A stretch of DNA of 38,534 nt, taken from positions 1-38,534 of IMG/VR virus record IMGVR_UViG_3300041955_000431; one strand, 5' to 3'. The translations under genes and the position numbers were made by a program. Shown here piece after piece: positions 20,422-30,154 of this stretch. Positions within the stretch are counted from its first letter, which is position 1. The number at the start of each line of letters is the position of its first letter. The notes under the pieces are model-generated. The model was not told where the DNA came from, made no database searches, and worked only from the letters and a program-made list of their open reading frames with translations. This DNA comes from a virus.

Positions 20422-21021
20422 TTACTTATTGCTAATTAATCGGCATAACTCAATAAAACGTAGTTGTGTTAAATTATTTTTCATCAAATTCACGTCTTTA
20501 TGCACCCATTGCACATTATCAACCGTGTAGCCCAATTGAGAGTCAATACGGTCTAAAGACGCTGTTGTATTTTTCCAATCAACACTACTATTAATGATTT
20601 TAGAACTAAAACCGATAGGTACACCCGATAATGCACATAATTTATTTTGTTGTAAATACAAATTCCATAAAAATTCAATTGATACATTTTCGCCCCACAA
20701 AATCCCGCGCAAATTAGCGTTGCGTTTAATATAACTATAAAACGTTTTACTAATATCCCCAACACCTTGATGCTCTAATTTGATAAATCCAACTTTTTTC
20801 CCTTGTTGTTTTGCTTTGGCGTAATTTAATCTACTTCTGCAACTCTTGCAGCAAGTTTGGCGACCAATCCTTAAAAAATAACCTCGTACATATTCTTCTT
20901 TTCCACATTTACATCTAACGTGATATTTTGTGTGTGTATCTGATTTTGTTACTTGAATAGTATCATCAATAACAACATAATCGCCAAATTTATTACCCTC
21001 TTGTGGCAAATCCGTTCTCAT
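20422..21021 (-). CDS. Free-standing HNH homing endonuclease
   Basis: The protein has 199 residues from the ATG at 21019-21021. Residues 37-61 carry clustered cysteines (RCKCG and TCCKSC) resembling a zinc-binding finger. Residues about 129-182 are an HNH nuclease core of the phage type: CALSGVPIG, then ASLDRIDSQLGYTVDNVQWV and HKDVNLMKNN (D157/D160, N169, H174, N178 as likely active-site or metal positions). It would nick or cut DNA at an intron-like or intergenic target and promote its own spread. It lies between the RNR terminator and the gp25 operon, with a perfect 14-bp inverted repeat two bases before its start. There is no sign of truncation. The family is secure; its target is unknown. 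Confidence 0.88.
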   Translation of the reverse strand: MRTDLPQEGNKFGDYVVIDDTIQVTKSDTHTKYHVRCKCGKEEYVRGYFLRIGRQTCCKSCRSRLNYAKAKQQGKKVGFIKLEHQGVGDISKTFYSYIKRNANLRGILWGENVSIEFLWNLYLQQNKLCALSGVPIGFSSKIINSSVDWKNTTASLDRIDSQLGYTVDNVQWVHKDVNLMKNNLTQLRFIELCRLISNK

Positions 21022-21023
21022 AA

Positions 21024-21065
21024 GGTTCTTTTCCTATATATAGTTAATAAAATAGGAAAAGAACC
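21024..21065 (-). promoter_or_regulatory. Perfect inverted repeat (hairpin) abutting the HNH start codon
   Basis: Arms GGTTCTTTTCCTAT (21024-21037) and ATAGGAAAAGAACC (21052-21065) are exact reverse complements separated by 14 bases. In the minus-strand RNA the hairpin ends two bases before the HNH AUG, and its 3' arm holds the only purine-rich, RBS-like stretch (AUAGGAAAAGAA). It could hide the start from ribosomes on long transcripts. It lacks a U-tract, so it is not a terminator. Confidence 0.7.
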
Positions 21066-21128: not shown

Positions 21129-24100
21129 TTAACCACATTTAGAATATTGACACGACGGGCATTTCAAACAACCCTCGGAATATTGTAATGTTGCGCCACA
21201 TTCAGGGCAAGCTCCCGCTTTTGGGTCAGCGGTGCCGTCTTTAATATATTTTTTCAAAATACGAATAACACCATTAATCCACGTGTTAATCATATCATCC
21301 ATATTCAAAGATTCCAGTAAATGAATAAGATGCACAATAGGCATACGATGACGTAGTAACCCTGATACAAATTTAGCGTAATTCCAATATTCTTTATTGA
21401 ACACACGGTTCAAACCTTTAACCTCTTGTTCGAACCCGCCTTTATCAGTGTATAAAAAATCATAACGTGAACCATTACCATTATCTTTGACACGGCGCAC
21501 CCTGCCTTTTTCAACATAAACAGGCACAGGGAATTCGTCAGCCAAACCAGTAAATATTTCATACGGGTGACCATCAAGACTACCCAAAAAGCCAATCCAT
21601 TTTTCGCTGTTGTTCATAAACTTAATTACATCACAATCAACAAATTTAGGGCGTTTTTTGGCGTGAGTTTCACCAAACGTTTCATCTTTCTTGATTTTAT
21701 CTTCACTGTCAGATGCAACCAGCACACCTGTACGGCTGCCGTCACGATACACAGTAACACCTTTGCACCCCTCACGCCAAGCTGTTAAATATAGTTCGTG
21801 TATATCTTCTTCGGTCGCGGTATTCGGCATATTGGTTGTATTACTGATACTATGGTCAATCCATTTCTGTAAAGCACCCTGCATTTTCACCTTTTCGCGC
21901 CAATCAATATCATTTGCGCTGGCTTTATTGTATGGTGATTTTGCAGCAATCGCGTTAAACGCATCAGTAGGCAGCAAAGCCACTTGTGCTACATCATAGC
22001 CATTAGCAGTAAGCCAAGCAGCAAAAGGCGGGTGAATAACTTCATATTCTTCCCACTGGTCGCCACTCTGGTCAGTAAATACAATTTTAACGTTCTTGTC
22101 CATTGGATTTACTTTGCGCCTGCGTTTGTATCGTAACGAAAAAACTGGTTCTACGCCAGAAGATACACCTAATAAAACAGATACAGAACCTGCTGGACTA
22201 ATGGTATTTAATGAAATACCGCGACGCCCGAATTTCTTCATACGTTCTTTAAGCTTCGGGTCGGCTTTGAATAATCGCTCCAAAAATGGGTTGCCTTTTT
22301 CTTTATCCCAACTATAAATCGGGAATGCGCCCCTTTCTTCCGCCAGTGTAACGGATGAATGATACGACGCCAGCCCAAGTTCACGCAGCACGTCTGTGGC
22401 AAATTGCGTCGCTTCGGAAGTGCCATATTGTAAATTCATTGCTGCAATCATATCACCCAGACCTGTTATACCCAAACCTGTACGGCGTCCATTAATAGCT
22501 TTTTTCTTAATTTCAGTCCAAAGCATAGTTTCCGCCATCTTAATATGCTCTGGTTCGGGGTCAGAAGCCACTTTAGAGAGTATCTGGTCAATCTTTTCCA
22601 GTTCAAGGTCTACTATATCGTCCATAAACCGTTCGGCTGTCTGAGCGTGTCTAATGAATAAATCGCGGGCAAAACGAGCATTGGGTGTAAATGGGTCGAT
22701 AATGTAATTAAAAAGATTGATAAGCAGTAGGCGACAGGAGTCGTTGGTGCATAAAACAATTTCGCCGCAATTTTTAACGCAAATACCACTGGAAACAATA
22801 TAATTATCGTCTTCTGTTTTTGTTATCACATGATAATTATGGTTATCGTCCACAGTAATATTATAAACGTCCTCGTACCCATAAAATTCGACAGATTCAA
22901 CTTTATGGTTTTCTACCACTTGATGTTTAAAATTAGCAAACGTTTTAAACCTAAAATTATTTCCTAAAAATTGTGGCAAATGATGTTTTTTTGCGTAATC
23001 AATCCAATTATTATAAGTTAATTTACCTAATTCTTTATATGCTTTTCGCCCCTCTTCAATTAATTCTTCATTTGTTACATTTATAGACCTACCATTTGTA
23101 AATCCTGTATGAAAAGCAAATAAATGTTTTTGTTCGTCTGAAAATTGATGATATGGGTTTTTATCGCCTAACATCCTGTCAGAATGTAATTTTTTATGTT
23201 CATTCATAGGCATAACCAACAAATTATCTACACGGTCATTTTGTTTGTTAAAATCTTTATGATGTATAGCAAAATTAACCGCGTCAACCTCCCCATTAAT
23301 AAATTCATTAATTAATCTGTATTGACGACGATTCCTAAAATTACCGCCAAACATTTTTTCACCAGTTCTACTTATTTGACGATAACCATTAGAATCAAAA
23401 GAATAGAATGGAACAATACTATCACCTTTATTTAACGCGTTTAATTCGGTATACTCTAAATTAGATAATAAAACTTTATGATTAGGGGTCGCAATTAAAA
23501 ACGACCCATCATCCAACGTCAATTTCCAGACTTCTTTTTTAATTCCAGTTTTACGCGGATTTCTACCCCACTTAATTTCAGTCTTACCCGTTGTTTGATT
23601 TGTTGAATAAAGCGGAACATCTTTACCCTCTTTAGCTAATTCTTTAATGGAAACGGCATTTCTTCCATCCGCCGTAGCAATTAAAGTACCACCAATAATA
23701 CAAGGGTTAGTCGATACCACGTTAAAACCTTGGTCAGTATAACAATCACCAATAGACTCACGTTTAATAGTATCCCACATAAGCAGCCCTGGTTCAGCGT
23801 GAGCCCAAGCGTTACGTACAATATTCTGCCACAAATCTCTGGCTTGTATTTCTTTTTTATATTTCGGATTTTTAACGTTAATGGGAAACTGTTGAATATA
23901 CTTATCATCCGCCACAACCGCATTCAAAAAAGCGTCACTCACTTTCAATGAAATATTGGCGCCAGTGACTTTAGTTCGATCAATTTTAGCGTTTATAAAT
24001 TCAACGGCATCCATACCTTGTACATCGTAGCTTAAAAGCAAAGCTCCGCGCCTACCTTCCATCGCCACTTCACGGGTTGTATTCGAATAGCGTTCCATAA

Positions 24101-24587
24101 ACGGCAGTATACCTGTCGTTGTTAACGCGGCGTTGGTTACTTTTGTACTACACGGACGTATGTGCGATATATCAGTACCGACGCCACATCTACGCTTATA
24201 TAATTGAGCCAACTGCTGGTCTGTCCATAGAATCCCACCATAGCTATCGTATAACTCACCCGTTACAAAACAATTAGAAATGGAAAGAATCTGAAAAGTA
24301 TTGCCGATGCCAGCCATAGGGCTGCCCTGCGGCACAATATATTTGAAATTCCGAAGCAACTGGTAAATATCTTCTTCGGTCATAGGGTTTGGGTATTTTG
24401 CTTCAATACGCGCAAACTCTTTAGCAATGCGCCTGTGCATATCATCAGGCGTCTTTTCATAAATGTTCCCGTCTGCATCTTTTAACGCATACTTTTGCAT
24501 CCATATATTGGCAGCCAAAGCGTCGCCATTAAAATACTCCAATGTTGCGTTTAATATTTCATCTTGTGTATACTTGGTCAATTTCAT
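21129..24587 (-). CDS. nrdJ: Adenosylcobalamin-dependent (class II) ribonucleotide reductase with intein
   Basis: The reading frame has 1152 residues (about 841 after splicing) from the ATG at 24585-24587. It reduces ribonucleotides to deoxyribonucleotides for phage DNA synthesis. Extein marks: SNCFV (C106), the radical motif STNP/CGEIVL (thiyl cysteine C607, E609), a second redox cysteine C618 in NDSC, KGVTVYRDGSR near the C-terminus and a final zinc-ribbon-like tail (CPECG, CLKCPSC, SKCG), all typical of NrdJ. No small-subunit gene is in the window, in keeping with class II. An intein with an HNH domain (residues 296-606) interrupts the enzyme immediately before C607. The gene follows the helicase after 14 bases and ends at a strong terminator, so it is the last gene of the replication operon. 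Confidence 0.92.
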   Translation of the reverse strand: MKLTKYTQDEILNATLEYFNGDALAANIWMQKYALKDADGNIYEKTPDDMHRRIAKEFARIEAKYPNPMTEEDIYQLLRNFKYIVPQGSPMAGIGNTFQILSISNCFVTGELYDSYGGILWTDQQLAQLYKRRCGVGTDISHIRPCSTKVTNAALTTTGILPFMERYSNTTREVAMEGRRGALLLSYDVQGMDAVEFINAKIDRTKVTGANISLKVSDAFLNAVVADDKYIQQFPINVKNPKYKKEIQARDLWQNIVRNAWAHAEPGLLMWDTIKRESIGDCYTDQGFNVVSTNPCIIGGTLIATADGRNAVSIKELAKEGKDVPLYSTNQTTGKTEIKWGRNPRKTGIKKEVWKLTLDDGSFLIATPNHKVLLSNLEYTELNALNKGDSIVPFYSFDSNGYRQISRTGEKMFGGNFRNRRQYRLINEFINGEVDAVNFAIHHKDFNKQNDRVDNLLVMPMNEHKKLHSDRMLGDKNPYHQFSDEQKHLFAFHTGFTNGRSINVTNEELIEEGRKAYKELGKLTYNNWIDYAKKHHLPQFLGNNFRFKTFANFKHQVVENHKVESVEFYGYEDVYNITVDDNHNYHVITKTEDDNYIVSSGICVKNCGEIVLCTNDSCRLLLINLFNYIIDPFTPNARFARDLFIRHAQTAERFMDDIVDLELEKIDQILSKVASDPEPEHIKMAETMLWTEIKKKAINGRRTGLGITGLGDMIAAMNLQYGTSEATQFATDVLRELGLASYHSSVTLAEERGAFPIYSWDKEKGNPFLERLFKADPKLKERMKKFGRRGISLNTISPAGSVSVLLGVSSGVEPVFSLRYKRRRKVNPMDKNVKIVFTDQSGDQWEEYEVIHPPFAAWLTANGYDVAQVALLPTDAFNAIAAKSPYNKASANDIDWREKVKMQGALQKWIDHSISNTTNMPNTATEEDIHELYLTAWREGCKGVTVYRDGSRTGVLVASDSEDKIKKDETFGETHAKKRPKFVDCDVIKFMNNSEKWIGFLGSLDGHPYEIFTGLADEFPVPVYVEKGRVRRVKDNGNGSRYDFLYTDKGGFEQEVKGLNRVFNKEYWNYAKFVSGLLRHRMPIVHLIHLLESLNMDDMINTWINGVIRILKKYIKDGTADPKAGACPECGATLQYSEGCLKCPSCQYSKCG
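22770..23702 (-). mobile_element. Intein with HNH homing endonuclease domain inside the RNR
   Basis: This 311-residue in-frame insert (RNR residues 296-606) runs from CIIGGTLIATADG to SSGICVKN and is followed by Cys. Block A is the first cysteine and the following strand; block B is TPNH (residues 367-370); block F is VYNITVDDNHNYHV; block G is GICVKN. The penultimate residue is Lys instead of the usual His. The central part has an HNH-type motif, HHKDFNKQNDRVDNLLVMPM then NEHKKLH (residues about 442-468). Removing it restores STNPCGEIVL, the conserved RNR sequence. The splicing and homing elements look complete; activity is inferred. Confidence 0.92.
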
Positions 24588-26520: not shown

Positions 26521-27579
26521 TTAAGTTAATAAGCATTGTTTAAAATAATCTTGTTCTTTCTTGATTATAGTCTGAAACGGCAACCAAAAATCTGTGAAAG
26601 CGTCATCATTATAACTGTTCAGCCGAATACCATCTTCCATAAACATTTTCAGTGCTTTCTGCACTCCGCCCCTATTTTCAGGGTCAATGGGAGATTCTTT
26701 GATTTCTTCTAAATCGGCAACGCCATCTGGCGTTACGTGTGGTGGGTTCAAACTGATGATTTCGTTCATCACCGCAAAATAATCATTTGCGTATATTCCC
26801 CATTTTGTCCGACCTTCCAAAATCTTGTAAACTGCTGTGTTGTCGGGCTGTTCAGCCAGCAACTCTTTTGCGCGGCTTCGAACCCATTCAACATTTTTCG
26901 GTTCATTTTTTAATTCAGGAAAAAGCTTTAAAACCGTAATTTCGGCTACTCCCTCGATGCCTGATATATTATCCGCTTGGTCACCGCCAATCATTTTGAT
27001 AATCGCCACATTACTGTAATGATATGGAAAATGTTTGTGAAAATTTTCAGTTGTTACCAAAAATTTCCTGGTGCGGTCAGCCAAATAAACATCAGTATCT
27101 TCGGAAAGTAGTTGGAGTAGGTCTTTATCGTTAGTGAATATAATTTTGTGTTCATTTGGCGAATGTTGTGAATAATATGCTATGCAGTCATCTGCTTCCG
27201 ACGCGTCCTCTTGGACTTGTCGGATATACAATTCTTCCAAATATTTTTTAATCCGCTGGCGCTGTGCCTGTAAATCCGCGTACTCATCTTCGGTAAGCTG
27301 AATAAATGGGTCGCGATTTTGTTTATAATACGGATAGTAACCTTGGCGGAACGCTCTGGAATTAGCCCCTTCCCAGAACACCACAACTTTAGTGATGTAA
27401 TACTCTTGATAAAATTTTCTGATTGTATCCAGAAAATGATATATCGTTTTTACCCGACCACGTTCAGTTATGGTGTTCCTCGTTGCGTGAAAGCCTATTT
27501 TTAAAAGAACTTCCCCGTCAATTAGAAGGGTTTTAATTTTAACAGGCTTCTTACTTTCAATCTTCCGATGAATCATCAT
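26521..27579 (-). CDS. 5'-3' exonuclease, FEN / T4 RNase H-like
   Basis: The protein has 352 residues from the ATG at 27577-27579, with a second ATG adjacent. FEN-family marks in order: TLLIDGE (D21), VVVFWEG (E70 where Asp is usual), a basic helical-arch segment FRQGYYPYYKQNRDP, SEADDCIAYY (E128, D130, D131), IFTNDKDLLQLL (D151, D153) and the helix-hairpin-helix entry GGDQADNISGIEGVAE (D200, D203). Such enzymes remove RNA primers and flaps during lagging-strand synthesis. The gene overlaps the recombinase by 23 bases, so translation is probably coupled. The call is secure at family level. Confidence 0.9.
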   Translation of the reverse strand: MMIHRKIESKKPVKIKTLLIDGEVLLKIGFHATRNTITERGRVKTIYHFLDTIRKFYQEYYITKVVVFWEGANSRAFRQGYYPYYKQNRDPFIQLTEDEYADLQAQRQRIKKYLEELYIRQVQEDASEADDCIAYYSQHSPNEHKIIFTNDKDLLQLLSEDTDVYLADRTRKFLVTTENFHKHFPYHYSNVAIIKMIGGDQADNISGIEGVAEITVLKLFPELKNEPKNVEWVRSRAKELLAEQPDNTAVYKILEGRTKWGIYANDYFAVMNEIISLNPPHVTPDGVADLEEIKESPIDPENRGGVQKALKMFMEDGIRLNSYNDDAFTDFWLPFQTIIKKEQDYFKQCLLT

Positions 27580-28603
27580 CTTGACCTGTTATTGCTGCGG
27601 CTGTTTCCGCGGTTACTACTTCTTCTATTAGGTCGAAATCGCCATCGGTTTCCAAAATTTTACGGAAATAATCACCGTGTTCGAGTTTGTACTTGTCGAT
27701 AGCTTTTTGATTGTCGGCAATGAAATAATGTGGAGTGATGATAATATGTCCATCCACAAATCCCAGTCCGTTGATGTGGTTCTTAACGATAGATACTTTT
27801 GTACGGGTAGCATATTTTATCTGGCGTCCGCCTTTTGCGGCTTTGATGCCAGAAATGCCTGCATTCTCAATGTTCCCGAACTGAAATACCAATGAAGAGT
27901 TCAAATAAATGGAGTTACCGCCCTTACCTTGGATACGTGCAGCAACTCTTGGGTTTTTCATATCTTTCCAAACCCACGGCTGTGTGATAATTGTTAATGT
28001 ATTGGTATATTTCCTGCCCTCTTTACGAGTGGAAAGAATACGATGGTTCAATCCCATCCCAATTTTTTCTGCAATAACACCAGCGGTATGCTGTCTGCCG
28101 CCAGCACCTTCAAACGTCAATTTACACGGAATGGAACCTACGGAATCCCAGAAAAATGCGAGATTATATGGTAGTTTACCTTTTTCTTGTGCGTCAATCA
28201 GAGCGTTCACATAATCTGTGACCTGTTCGACGTAATCAAAATTATCGTTGTACAGAAAGAAGCCTTTCCATTCACCTTTTTCATTTTGATTACAATTGAA
28301 ACCCATAAGCTGTGCGTGCTCAAATGACCATTTGAGCTCCGTAATTAAGAACACGGGTAAATCACCTTGACGCTGGGCGTCGGCGGCTGCTAAAAGAAGC
28401 GCCGCCGTTTTCCCAGAGTCACTGTGCCCGATGAATTGATTAATGTGCCCTTTGGCGGGCCCTGGCAGACCTACATTAACCAAAAAATCTTCCCCGCAAG
28501 AATAGTATTCCTGCGGTTTCAGCTTCGTGGAGCTATTGTATTCGTCCAGTTGAGCCTGAACATCATTGTCAAACTCTTTCTTTTTAATCGCTTTGTTCGG
28601 CAT
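27557..28603 (-). CDS. RecA/UvsX-like recombinase
   Basis: The protein has 348 residues from the ATG at 28601-28603. The RecA-type core is visible: Walker A GHSDSGKT (59-66), a strand-helix with VFLITELKWSFEHAQLMGF, Walker B NLAFFWDSVGSI (D153), a LTIITQPWVWKDM segment like the 'x-x-x-x-N/Q' sensor strand, and the later KGGNSIYLNSSLVFQFG region where RecA-fold proteins have the arginine-finger/loop part. It would form the nucleoprotein filament used in recombination-dependent replication and repair, together with the gp32-like protein two genes upstream. The gene begins 11 bases after the HNH gene and ends inside the exonuclease gene. Confidence 0.9.
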   Translation of the reverse strand: MPNKAIKKKEFDNDVQAQLDEYNSSTKLKPQEYYSCGEDFLVNVGLPGPAKGHINQFIGHSDSGKTAALLLAAADAQRQGDLPVFLITELKWSFEHAQLMGFNCNQNEKGEWKGFFLYNDNFDYVEQVTDYVNALIDAQEKGKLPYNLAFFWDSVGSIPCKLTFEGAGGRQHTAGVIAEKIGMGLNHRILSTRKEGRKYTNTLTIITQPWVWKDMKNPRVAARIQGKGGNSIYLNSSLVFQFGNIENAGISGIKAAKGGRQIKYATRTKVSIVKNHINGLGFVDGHIIITPHYFIADNQKAIDKYKLEHGDYFRKILETDGDFDLIEEVVTAETAAAITGQDDDSSED

Positions 28604-28614
28604 AAATTTTCTTT

Positions 28615-29154
28615 TTACAAATTAGTTTCATTAATTTTTAAACGTGCTAAAAGTTCAAAATGTTTTTCTTTACTATCTAAAACATCACCATTTAGGCTCC
28701 TGAACATCATTATTTCTTGATCGTAATTCATATGCCGATGAAGTAAATAATGGTCTTTTATTGGTAACTCTAAAATATCCAGCCAATCTTCTTGATTATA
28801 CGACCAATGGTGTAAATTTATACCAGGAAGTTTAGTTAAAAATATCTCGGTATATTTTGTAGCCATATATTTTTCTGGGTACTTCTGATAATGTTTTTTT
28901 AATATCTCTTTTTTTCTCTCTCTTGACGGCTTGTATTTTTGGCGATATTCAAGTCTAAAATATTTATCACGACCTCTTTTACGCTCTTTTTCTACCCATT
29001 CTTTATCATTTCTTAATTCACTTTCTCTTGTTTTTACGTCAGTCTTGGTGCAAGAAATACACTTATTCAAATGACCGTCTGACATTTTTTTATGCTCATA
29101 GAATTCTGAAATAGGTAAAGTTTTTCCGCATTTAAAACACGTTTTTTGTTTCAT
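28615..29154 (-). CDS. Free-standing HNH homing endonuclease with zinc finger
   Basis: The protein has 179 residues from the ATG at 29152-29154. Two CxxC pairs (C6/C9 and C32/C35) form an N-terminal zinc-ribbon-like finger. A long basic region (residues 50-100, rich in Lys and Arg) is likely to bind DNA. The HNH core is at about 114-145: LHHWSYNQEDWLDILELPIK then DHYLLHRHMNYDQE (H115, H116, N120, H135, H139). It is inserted between the ssDNA-binding protein and the recombinase genes. A perfect hairpin ends directly at its start codon, and a candidate late promoter lies in the hairpin. The nuclease family is fairly sure; the target is unknown. Confidence 0.83.
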   Translation of the reverse strand: MKQKTCFKCGKTLPISEFYEHKKMSDGHLNKCISCTKTDVKTRESELRNDKEWVEKERKRGRDKYFRLEYRQKYKPSRERKKEILKKHYQKYPEKYMATKYTEIFLTKLPGINLHHWSYNQEDWLDILELPIKDHYLLHRHMNYDQEIMMFRSLNGDVLDSKEKHFELLARLKINETNL

Positions 29155-29210
29155 CTTTTTAAACTTTTCGAGATATTATTATCTATAAATATCCCGAAAA
29201 GTTTAAAAAG
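29155..29210 (-). promoter_or_regulatory. Long perfect hairpin directly before the HNH start codon
   Basis: Arms CTTTTTAAACTTTTCG (29155-29170) and CGAAAAGTTTAAAAAG (29195-29210) are exact reverse complements. In the minus-strand RNA the stem continues through one G-U pair and six more pairs (GAUAUU/AAUAUC) to a 10-base loop at 29178-29187, about 23 pairs in all. The 3' arm ends at the base before the AUG. No U-tract follows, so termination is unlikely; sequestering of the start is the natural reading. Confidence 0.75.
29179..29191 (-). promoter_or_regulatory. Candidate late promoter element inside the HNH hairpin
   Basis: The minus strand reads TATTTATAGATAA, close to TATTTATAATAAA. It spans the loop and inner stem of the hairpin at 29155-29210. 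A transcript starting about 6 bases beyond the TATTTATA box would lack the 5' arm, leaving the HNH start free. Its promoter role is inferred. Confidence 0.4.
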
Positions 29211-29236
29211 GTAGATTTTTGTTTTTTCTTACCATT

Positions 29237-30154
29237 CTAAAAAGGTAAATCGTCCTCGCTGATGGTTGTACCTTCGGCTACGGCTGTTACTACAGGAATC
29301 TCAACTGACACTATTGCGTGAGTTGCAGACGCAGTTCCCTGCGGTGTTCCTGCTGTTGGCAATGCATCGGTGATGGTTTCCTGCGTACTGGTAGACGGAG
29401 TGTCATCAGTTTCTGGTTTTGGTACCCATTTATTGTCGTGTTCACTCCACATAGGAATACCACCTTCTGCTATAATAAGCAAGTATTCGTGGTCGTATTT
29501 CTTGTAGACGTTTTCCCACGTCATTGGGTCAGCAAGCCACTGTTCAACCAATTCTTGACTGGCTGAAAGCGGGCTAACGCCATTCGGCAGGATAGATGTG
29601 ATTGCGGTGTATTCCTTACCACGCTGGTCTTTCACTTTGGTCAGGTTGATGAGTAAATCCGTACCCGTTACAGGGTCGGTAACATCACCGAATTTCTTGA
29701 AGATGGTTGTCAGCATATCGAATACGCCTGTTCCTTTTGATTCGTGTGGGAATCGCCAGAACTTGACACCTTCTTGTTCCTTTCCGCGTTCAATACCTTT
29801 GATGATGTAATACAAGCGCGGTCTGTACTTGGCAGCCTGCTTTTTAACAGCAGGGTCAGGGTCACCTTTAAGCTCGTTGTAAATTTCATTCAACGGCGAA
29901 GGTTTGCCTTCATTCTTGCCAGGGTCGTACAGTTTACGCTGCTTACCGCCTACTTCCACTACGTGGAAATAAACTTCAATAAATGGTGATTGATCTGGGT
30001 TTTTCGGGGGAAGCATTCTAAAAATCTTCTCTCCGCGTGTGATACCCTTATCCAGGGCAATTGTGAAGTACTTTGTTAAATCTGTTTTTTCAAAAGTACT
30101 CTGGGCTGCTCGTTTTGCTTGCTGATCGAGCACAGCTTGTGCAACATTACTCAT
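29237..30154 (-). CDS. Single-stranded DNA-binding protein, T4 gp32-like
   Basis: The protein has 305 residues from the ATG at 30152-30154. The core has the gp32-type OB layout: KIFRMLPPKNPDQSPFIEVY near residue 45, YRPRLYYIIKGIERG, VKFWRFPHESKGTGVFDMLT and LLINLTKVKDQRGKEYTAIT. A Thr/Ala/Pro-rich linker (from about residue 250) ends in SEDDLPF, an acidic tip much like the DDDIPF end of bacterial SSB. There are no cysteines, so the structural zinc of T4 gp32 is absent. The protein coats ssDNA and would coordinate with the recombinase and helicase downstream. It is the first gene of the replication operon and has a promoter-like sequence about 107 bases before its start. Confidence 0.88.
   Translation of the reverse strand: MSNVAQAVLDQQAKRAAQSTFEKTDLTKYFTIALDKGITRGEKIFRMLPPKNPDQSPFIEVYFHVVEVGGKQRKLYDPGKNEGKPSPLNEIYNELKGDPDPAVKKQAAKYRPRLYYIIKGIERGKEQEGVKFWRFPHESKGTGVFDMLTTIFKKFGDVTDPVTGTDLLINLTKVKDQRGKEYTAITSILPNGVSPLSASQELVEQWLADPMTWENVYKKYDHEYLLIIAEGGIPMWSEHDNKWVPKPETDDTPSTSTQETITDALPTAGTPQGTASATHAIVSVEIPVVTAVAEGTTISEDDLPF

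Follow-up and report, generated by a model that had tools for sequence, protein, structure and literature searches.

A phage HNH/EndoVII-like endonuclease gene behind a hairpin that is predicted to hide its start codon and holds a candidate late promoter

Hairpin-hidden endonuclease genes and the locus under study

Endonuclease genes that are hidden by a hairpin in long transcripts and expressed from a late promoter are known from phage T4 (I-TevI and segB) and from Aeromonas phage Aeh1 (mobE) (PMC2988022). In T4 I-TevI, I-TevII, I-TevIII and segB, the late RNA starts downstream of the 5′ arm, with the result that only the late RNA can be translated. An inhibitory helix over the start region also occurs in the early RNAs of T4 genes e and soc, and the late promoters of gene e lie near its 5′ strand, but these are lysis and virion genes rather than mobile nucleases. 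The T4 endonuclease gene segG adjoins the phage single-stranded DNA-binding protein (SSB) gene, gene 32, as the gene described below adjoins an SSB gene; however, it encodes a GIY-YIG enzyme, lies on the promoter side of gene 32, is described as a promoterless cassette, and has no such hairpin in the review (PMC2988022). The closest precedent for our locus is mobE, a free-standing HNH gene in a replication/nucleotide operon, with a late promoter directly upstream and a hairpin that hides the initiation region in longer RNAs (PMC2988022).

The stretch analysed here, which we call the window, is the 38,534 bases of IMG/VR record IMGVR_UViG_3300041955_000431, a metagenome-derived virus with nearly all of its recognisable genes on the minus strand. 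Among these is a gene for a free-standing HNH/EndoVII-like endonuclease of 179 aa (28615..29154 (-); PHROG endonuclease 4e-11, EndoVII 7e-9). It is preceded by a gp32-like SSB gene ending in ...EDDLPF* (29237..30154 (-); Pfam gp32 1.2e-10, PHROG SSB) and followed, after 11 nt, by a UvsX-like recombinase gene (27557..28603 (-); PHROG match), behind which come genes for an exonuclease, a DnaB-type helicase and a ribonucleotide reductase. The large subunit of the latter (21129-24587 (-), 1152 aa) carries an intein-like insert with an HNH-like stretch (PHROG HNH matches at 394-486); its homologue in related contig G001 measures 808 aa. Flavobacterium phage immuto, an annotated and cultured relative, has a nearly identical gene order but no HNH gene. 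In bacterial genomes, the top seven HNH relatives all come from Bacteroidota records except for one, from an unclassified bacterium. Because of this shared gene order and the origin of the bacterial HNH relatives, a Bacteroidota host is likely for the window virus.

The endonuclease assignment of the 179-aa protein comes from PHROG only. The protein has two CxxC pairs followed by HHWSYNQ...H...HR, and these C and H residues, including HH...H...HR, are invariant across 14 homologues. In an AlphaFold2 model, residues 112-140 form a strand-strand-helix, the predicted beta-beta-alpha order. A Pfam search gave nothing above the cut-off, and a Pfam family assignment was dropped for that reason; neither a PDB fold search with the model (best E 0.9 to Cap5, with Hpy99I at E 5.6) nor a PDB sequence search gave a significant match. 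The gene is optional at this site: the SSB-uvsX junction is empty in relative L031 and in immuto, and an eroded remnant is left in L028. It is probably a mobile cassette for a homing endonuclease, inserted between SSB and uvsX. In two further relatives (L014 and L027) the HNH copy is broken by a frameshift and the hairpin is retained.

The initial annotation had likened this locus to T4 I-TevI. The logic is indeed the same, but I-TevI is an intron-encoded GIY-YIG enzyme with an autorepressor site, and mobE is the nearer parallel. The two HNH genes differ in turn: mobE sits at nrdA, behind a T4-type late promoter, and is controlled by occlusion of the ribosome-binding site (PMC2988022), whereas the window gene has a candidate TATTTAT promoter, a helix that covers the AUG region itself and is backed by covariation over 23 relatives, and a setting in a phylum without Shine-Dalgarno pairing. 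The T4 late consensus, TATAAATA in sense, is a feature of the T4-group members and not of the gating logic, and the window HNH gene lacks it. What is new here is thus the lineage, the promoter, the comparative evidence and a link to SSB tips; the logic itself was already known.

A hairpin that keeps its pairing but not its sequence

The hairpin consists of a 5′ arm (29188..29210 (-)), a 10-nt loop (29178..29187 (-)) and a 3′ arm (29155..29177 (-)) that stops at the base before the AUG (29154-29152). The arms are 23 nt each and 96% complementary, with one G-U pair. The minimum free energy of 29120-29240(-) is -29.9 kcal/mol, vs. a mean of -11.9 for shuffled sequences (z = -6.9; none of 200 shuffles was as stable), and among 272 gene starts, taken from the window plus five related contigs, the start region of the HNH gene folds best (-26.9 kcal/mol). 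The hairpin noticed in the initial annotation, with arms of about 23 bp ending just before the AUG, was thus recovered at the same coordinates.

Relatives of the HNH protein are encoded on 28 viral contigs, and a profile search gave 80 loci in two groups. The first group (class 1) comprises 23 distinct start regions at the same position, with the order SSB-HNH-uvsX in every case. All have a hairpin where the HNH gene starts, and the inner end of this hairpin carries TATTTAT or a sequence close to it; perfect stems of at least 10 bp cover the start of 21 of these 23 genes vs. 10 of 400 control ORFs. The sequences of the arms differ, as in TTCCAC/GTGGAA, TTTCTAG/CTAGAAA, TTGTCATG/CATGACAA and GTTCTGCA/TGCAGAAC, and stem length ranges from 9 to 25 pairs. 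In a duplex test over the 23 relatives, the 5′ arms paired with their own 3′ regions at a mean of -19.2 kcal/mol, vs. -9.3 when the 3′ regions of other relatives were swapped in; cognate pairing was weak in three relatives (L010, L014 and L024). Per-position pair counts showed at least two Watson-Crick types at 24 arm positions and at least three at 11. In a MAFFT alignment of 10 sequences, 88.8% of cells in the proposed helix were paired vs. 42-54% for slid partners, and the covariation score was 0.383 vs. 0.178 for shuffled alignments (0/500 reached 0.383) and at most 0.147 for slid partners. A hairpin formed by chance is ruled out by the shuffles, the swapped arms and the control ORFs.

The register of the helix also shifts among relatives, lying upstream of, across or beyond the AUG, yet the start remains covered. 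In four relatives (L008, L022, L073 and L087), the strongest segment of the helix is displaced: its 3′ arm falls within the coding region, immediately after the AUG, and its 5′ arm lies farther upstream. It is coverage of the start that is conserved, rather than the sequence or position of the arms. Paired changes in the arms, which the initial annotation had proposed to look for in related phages, are indeed present, and the embedded TATTTAT is kept.

TATTTAT as a candidate late promoter and the proposed switch

The promoter-like element that had been placed in the loop and inner stem is TATTTATAGATAA, at 29191-29179 on the minus strand, with TATTTAT at 29185..29191 (-). An unbiased count of all 7-mers covered the 60 nt before ATGs in the window and in five related contigs (G001-G003, G005 and G007); TATTTAT in sense showed the strongest enrichment (71 vs. 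5.9 expected). Its complement, ATAAATA, was also somewhat enriched (25 vs. 5.9), because regions upstream of ATGs are AT-rich. The distance from TATTTAT to the ATG was never below 11 nt and peaked at 11-13 and 21-24 nt. A W-rich block precedes the motif by 14-17 nt. Further candidate sites lie at 1178, 5098 and 20386 of the window and in the same five contigs.

In contig G001, TATTTAT precedes the genes for tail sheath, tail tube, gp25 wedge and head-tail adaptor, and was not found before those for reductase, helicase, exonuclease, UvsX, SSB or DNA polymerase. In immuto, it precedes 8 of 22 late genes (including terminase, portal, sheath and hub) vs. 1 of 13 early genes, both sets being our own selection; GroES of immuto also carries it, at 47 nt. 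From the functions of these genes we infer that TATTTAT is used late, and we consider it a strong candidate for the core of the late promoter in this Immutovirus-like phage lineage. The earlier proposal of a late promoter inside the hairpin therefore stands in so far as the motif is the most enriched of the lineage, is in sense and precedes structural genes, but the element is not that of T4: TATAAATA occurs at the hairpin only on the opposite strand (29184-29191), and a T4 late promoter was rejected because the match is antisense only and the orientation counts favour sense TATTTAT. When the flanks of TATTTAT were tested for pairing in the 68 genes with an exact motif in the six contigs, the four HNH genes among them ranked 1-4 (-23.8 to -19.6), with the next at -12.1. 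Since only these four have such hairpins, the hairpin is not a general property of TATTTAT promoters.

A candidate reader of TATTTAT is a sigma-70-like protein of 254 aa encoded in contig G002 (8618-9382 (-)). It has no tblastn match in the other contigs, and a search for sigma factors gave a weak hit in G001 and none in G005, G007 or immuto. We found nothing relevant in the literature on late promoters of Flavobacterium phages.

Neither TATTTAT nor TAHHTTTG was found in the stretch from the HNH AUG to uvsX, and the 80 nt before the exonuclease and DnaB genes were likewise free of both. Because uvsX, the exonuclease and DnaB have no promoter motif of their own, early read-through RNA across the HNH gene is to be expected: early or middle RNA from upstream of SSB would have to cross it to express uvsX and the genes behind. 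In such RNA, the 23-bp hairpin would pair the initiation region up to the AUG and block ribosomes. In Flavobacterium johnsoniae, Shine-Dalgarno pairing does not guide translation, and RNA structure near the start modulates it (PMC6847099), which makes burial of the start region a plausible switch; Bacteroidota ribosomes, choosing starts without Shine-Dalgarno pairing, would be sensitive to structure there. Later, the phage late polymerase would read TATTTAT inside the hairpin and start the RNA in the loop, near 29179-29180. This predicted start (29179..29180 (-)), 11-12 nt after the first T of TATTTAT, derives from the minimum motif-to-ATG distance and from analogy with spacing in F. johnsoniae (PMC6847099). 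The late RNA, missing the 5′ arm, would be unable to fold and would be translated. Computed costs agree in direction: freeing the region from -15 to +13 takes about 18 kcal/mol in the read-through RNA vs. 2.9 in the predicted late RNA, which is expected to keep a weak downstream stem touching the AUG. Production of the nuclease would then fall in the late phase, by which time the early genes have been expressed and many copies of the genome are available for homing.

We consider it quite probable that the HNH gene is, as a whole, a homing nuclease gated by the hairpin and promoted late, with the start site, timing, translational block and homing all predicted from the DNA. The reading first proposed, a start hidden in long RNA and freed by an internal late start, is thus supported as a prediction by the covariation, the motif and the SSB-HNH-uvsX layout. 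If correct, phages of another bacterial phylum would have their own version of T4's device for keeping a selfish nuclease untranslated early on, with a different promoter, no Shine-Dalgarno pairing, and selection on base pairing rather than on sequence. TATTTAT would be a candidate late promoter for a lineage of phages that has been little studied but has a relative in culture, immuto, and with the HNH leader the occlusion of start codons could be tested directly in Bacteroidota.

Other explanations would keep parts of this picture. The hairpin and TATTTAT could be real and the promoter not late-specific, being active, for example, throughout infection. Lateness is deduced from gene function alone and GroES of immuto has the motif, but its absence before the replication and nucleotide genes of G001 and before nearly all immuto early genes examined makes this reading unlikely. 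It is also quite unlikely that the hairpin serves mainly as an RNA processing site, with RNase III-like cleavage of the perfect stem separating the SSB mRNA from the HNH-uvsX mRNA. A long perfect stem between two cistrons would suit such a role, and processing by RNase E of segG, segB and Aeh1 mobE RNAs is known in the T4 group (PMC2988022). However, stem length and register vary, and the helix lies partly over the coding region in some relatives, yet coverage of the start is kept; other genes with TATTTAT have no such hairpin, and the conserved TATTTAT inside it would be left unexplained.

The palindrome might instead act as DNA, as an operator or cleavage site for the nuclease itself or as a recombination relic. 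I-TevI does bind an operator over its own late promoter (PMC2988022), and the outer 5′ arm overlaps a repeat of the SSB tail codons. A binding site should keep its sequence, however, whereas the arms change freely with pairing retained; what is conserved is the promoter element and the tail copy. We regard a role as DNA as very unlikely and dropped a fixed operator because the arm sequences vary too much. Least credible is a transcription terminator or attenuator with no role in HNH start control. The position behind the SSB stop codon is what would be expected of one, but the AT-rich stem is not followed by a U-tract and a terminator scan made no call, for which reasons we dropped this reading; moreover, it would cut off uvsX, the exonuclease and the helicase, none of which has its own promoter motif, and the HNH-less relative has no such hairpin.

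SSB tips, class-2 relatives and a second HNH gene

The protein encoded directly before the HNH gene carries the acidic tip typical of SSBs in 76 of 79 distinct loci, its end being (L/M/I)PF plus at most five more residues. These upstream proteins fall into 12 groups without BLAST links, those with Pfam matches being gp32-like, PF00436 SSB or DUF3127. More distant HNH relatives, in other phages of mostly Gram-negative hosts, lie directly behind tails of the DDDIPF, DDDTPF or DDSCPF type in 14 of 15 records, and such tails are also found there on primase/helicase genes. In the window, a second copy of the SSB tail codons, ATCTACCTTTTTA, occurs as a direct repeat at 29204..29216 (-), overlapping the outer 5′ arm, with the first copy at 29238-29250. 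At least two copies, the second between the SSB stop and the HNH start, are present in 18 of 23 class-1 and 30 of 54 class-2 loci, and the second might be a trace of insertion. In the HNH-less L031 the LPF tail is intact and uvsX follows after just a short gap; in L028 the tail copy remains, but the hairpin and most of the HNH gene are gone. A small inverted repeat, TTACC...GGTAA, lies over the SSB stop codon (29229..29248 (-)) and is common to HNH-bearing relatives, a palindrome of this type being present in 22 of 23 class-1 and 25 of 54 class-2 spacers.

The simplest reading of these positions is that the DNA encoding the tip is the homing site; co-regulation of HNH with SSB is the alternative. 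Because unrelated SSB types, and even primase/helicases, share the tip, jumps between non-homologous genes would be possible. We lean slightly towards a family that homes to DNA encoding acidic (D/E)x(L/I)PF tips at the C-terminus of SSBs and moves between non-homologous genes with its own late promoter and hairpin, adapted to the promoter type of each phage (TATTTAT or TAHHTTTG). If true, the link would account for the passage of a homing endonuclease from one gene to an unrelated one. A literature search on SSB-tip-associated HNH genes found nothing relevant.

The class-2 relatives are in other phages and often have, near the HNH start, TAHHTTTG, which is the Bacteroidota -7 element, or the near match TAHHTTTA. 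The element lies in the loop of a strong hairpin in L119, L137 and L140, and itself pairs with codons behind the AUG in L090, L103 and L126. Over 21 such loci, cognate pairing was -14.4 vs. -10.2 for swapped partners (permutation p = 5e-5). Perfect stems of at least 10 bp cover 6 of 50 class-2 starts vs. 10 of 400 controls, and TAHHTTT(G/A) begins exactly 12 nt before the HNH ATG in L093-L096, L099, L104, L106, L110, L115, L116, L121, L124, L128 and L133. By F. johnsoniae spacing (PMC6847099), this distance would put the RNA start at the A of the ATG and yield a leaderless RNA. With few long stems and many 12-nt spacings, class 2 uses the hairpin in part only.

The window contains a second, unrelated free-standing HNH/EndoVII-like gene of a different family (20422..21021 (-), 199 aa; PHROG endonuclease 3.5e-18, EndoVII 4.6e-17), located behind the reductase gene. 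A perfect 14-bp hairpin, GGTTCTTTTCCTAT/ATAGGAAAAGAACC (21024..21065 (-); z = -6.4), ends 2 nt before its AUG. No other start region in the window is as stable as those of these two HNH genes, which appear to have converged on the same solution. Among relatives of the second gene, stems of at least 10 bp occur at 7 of 53 starts, and L195, L203, L209 and L211 have a hairpin around a promoter-like element in the loop.
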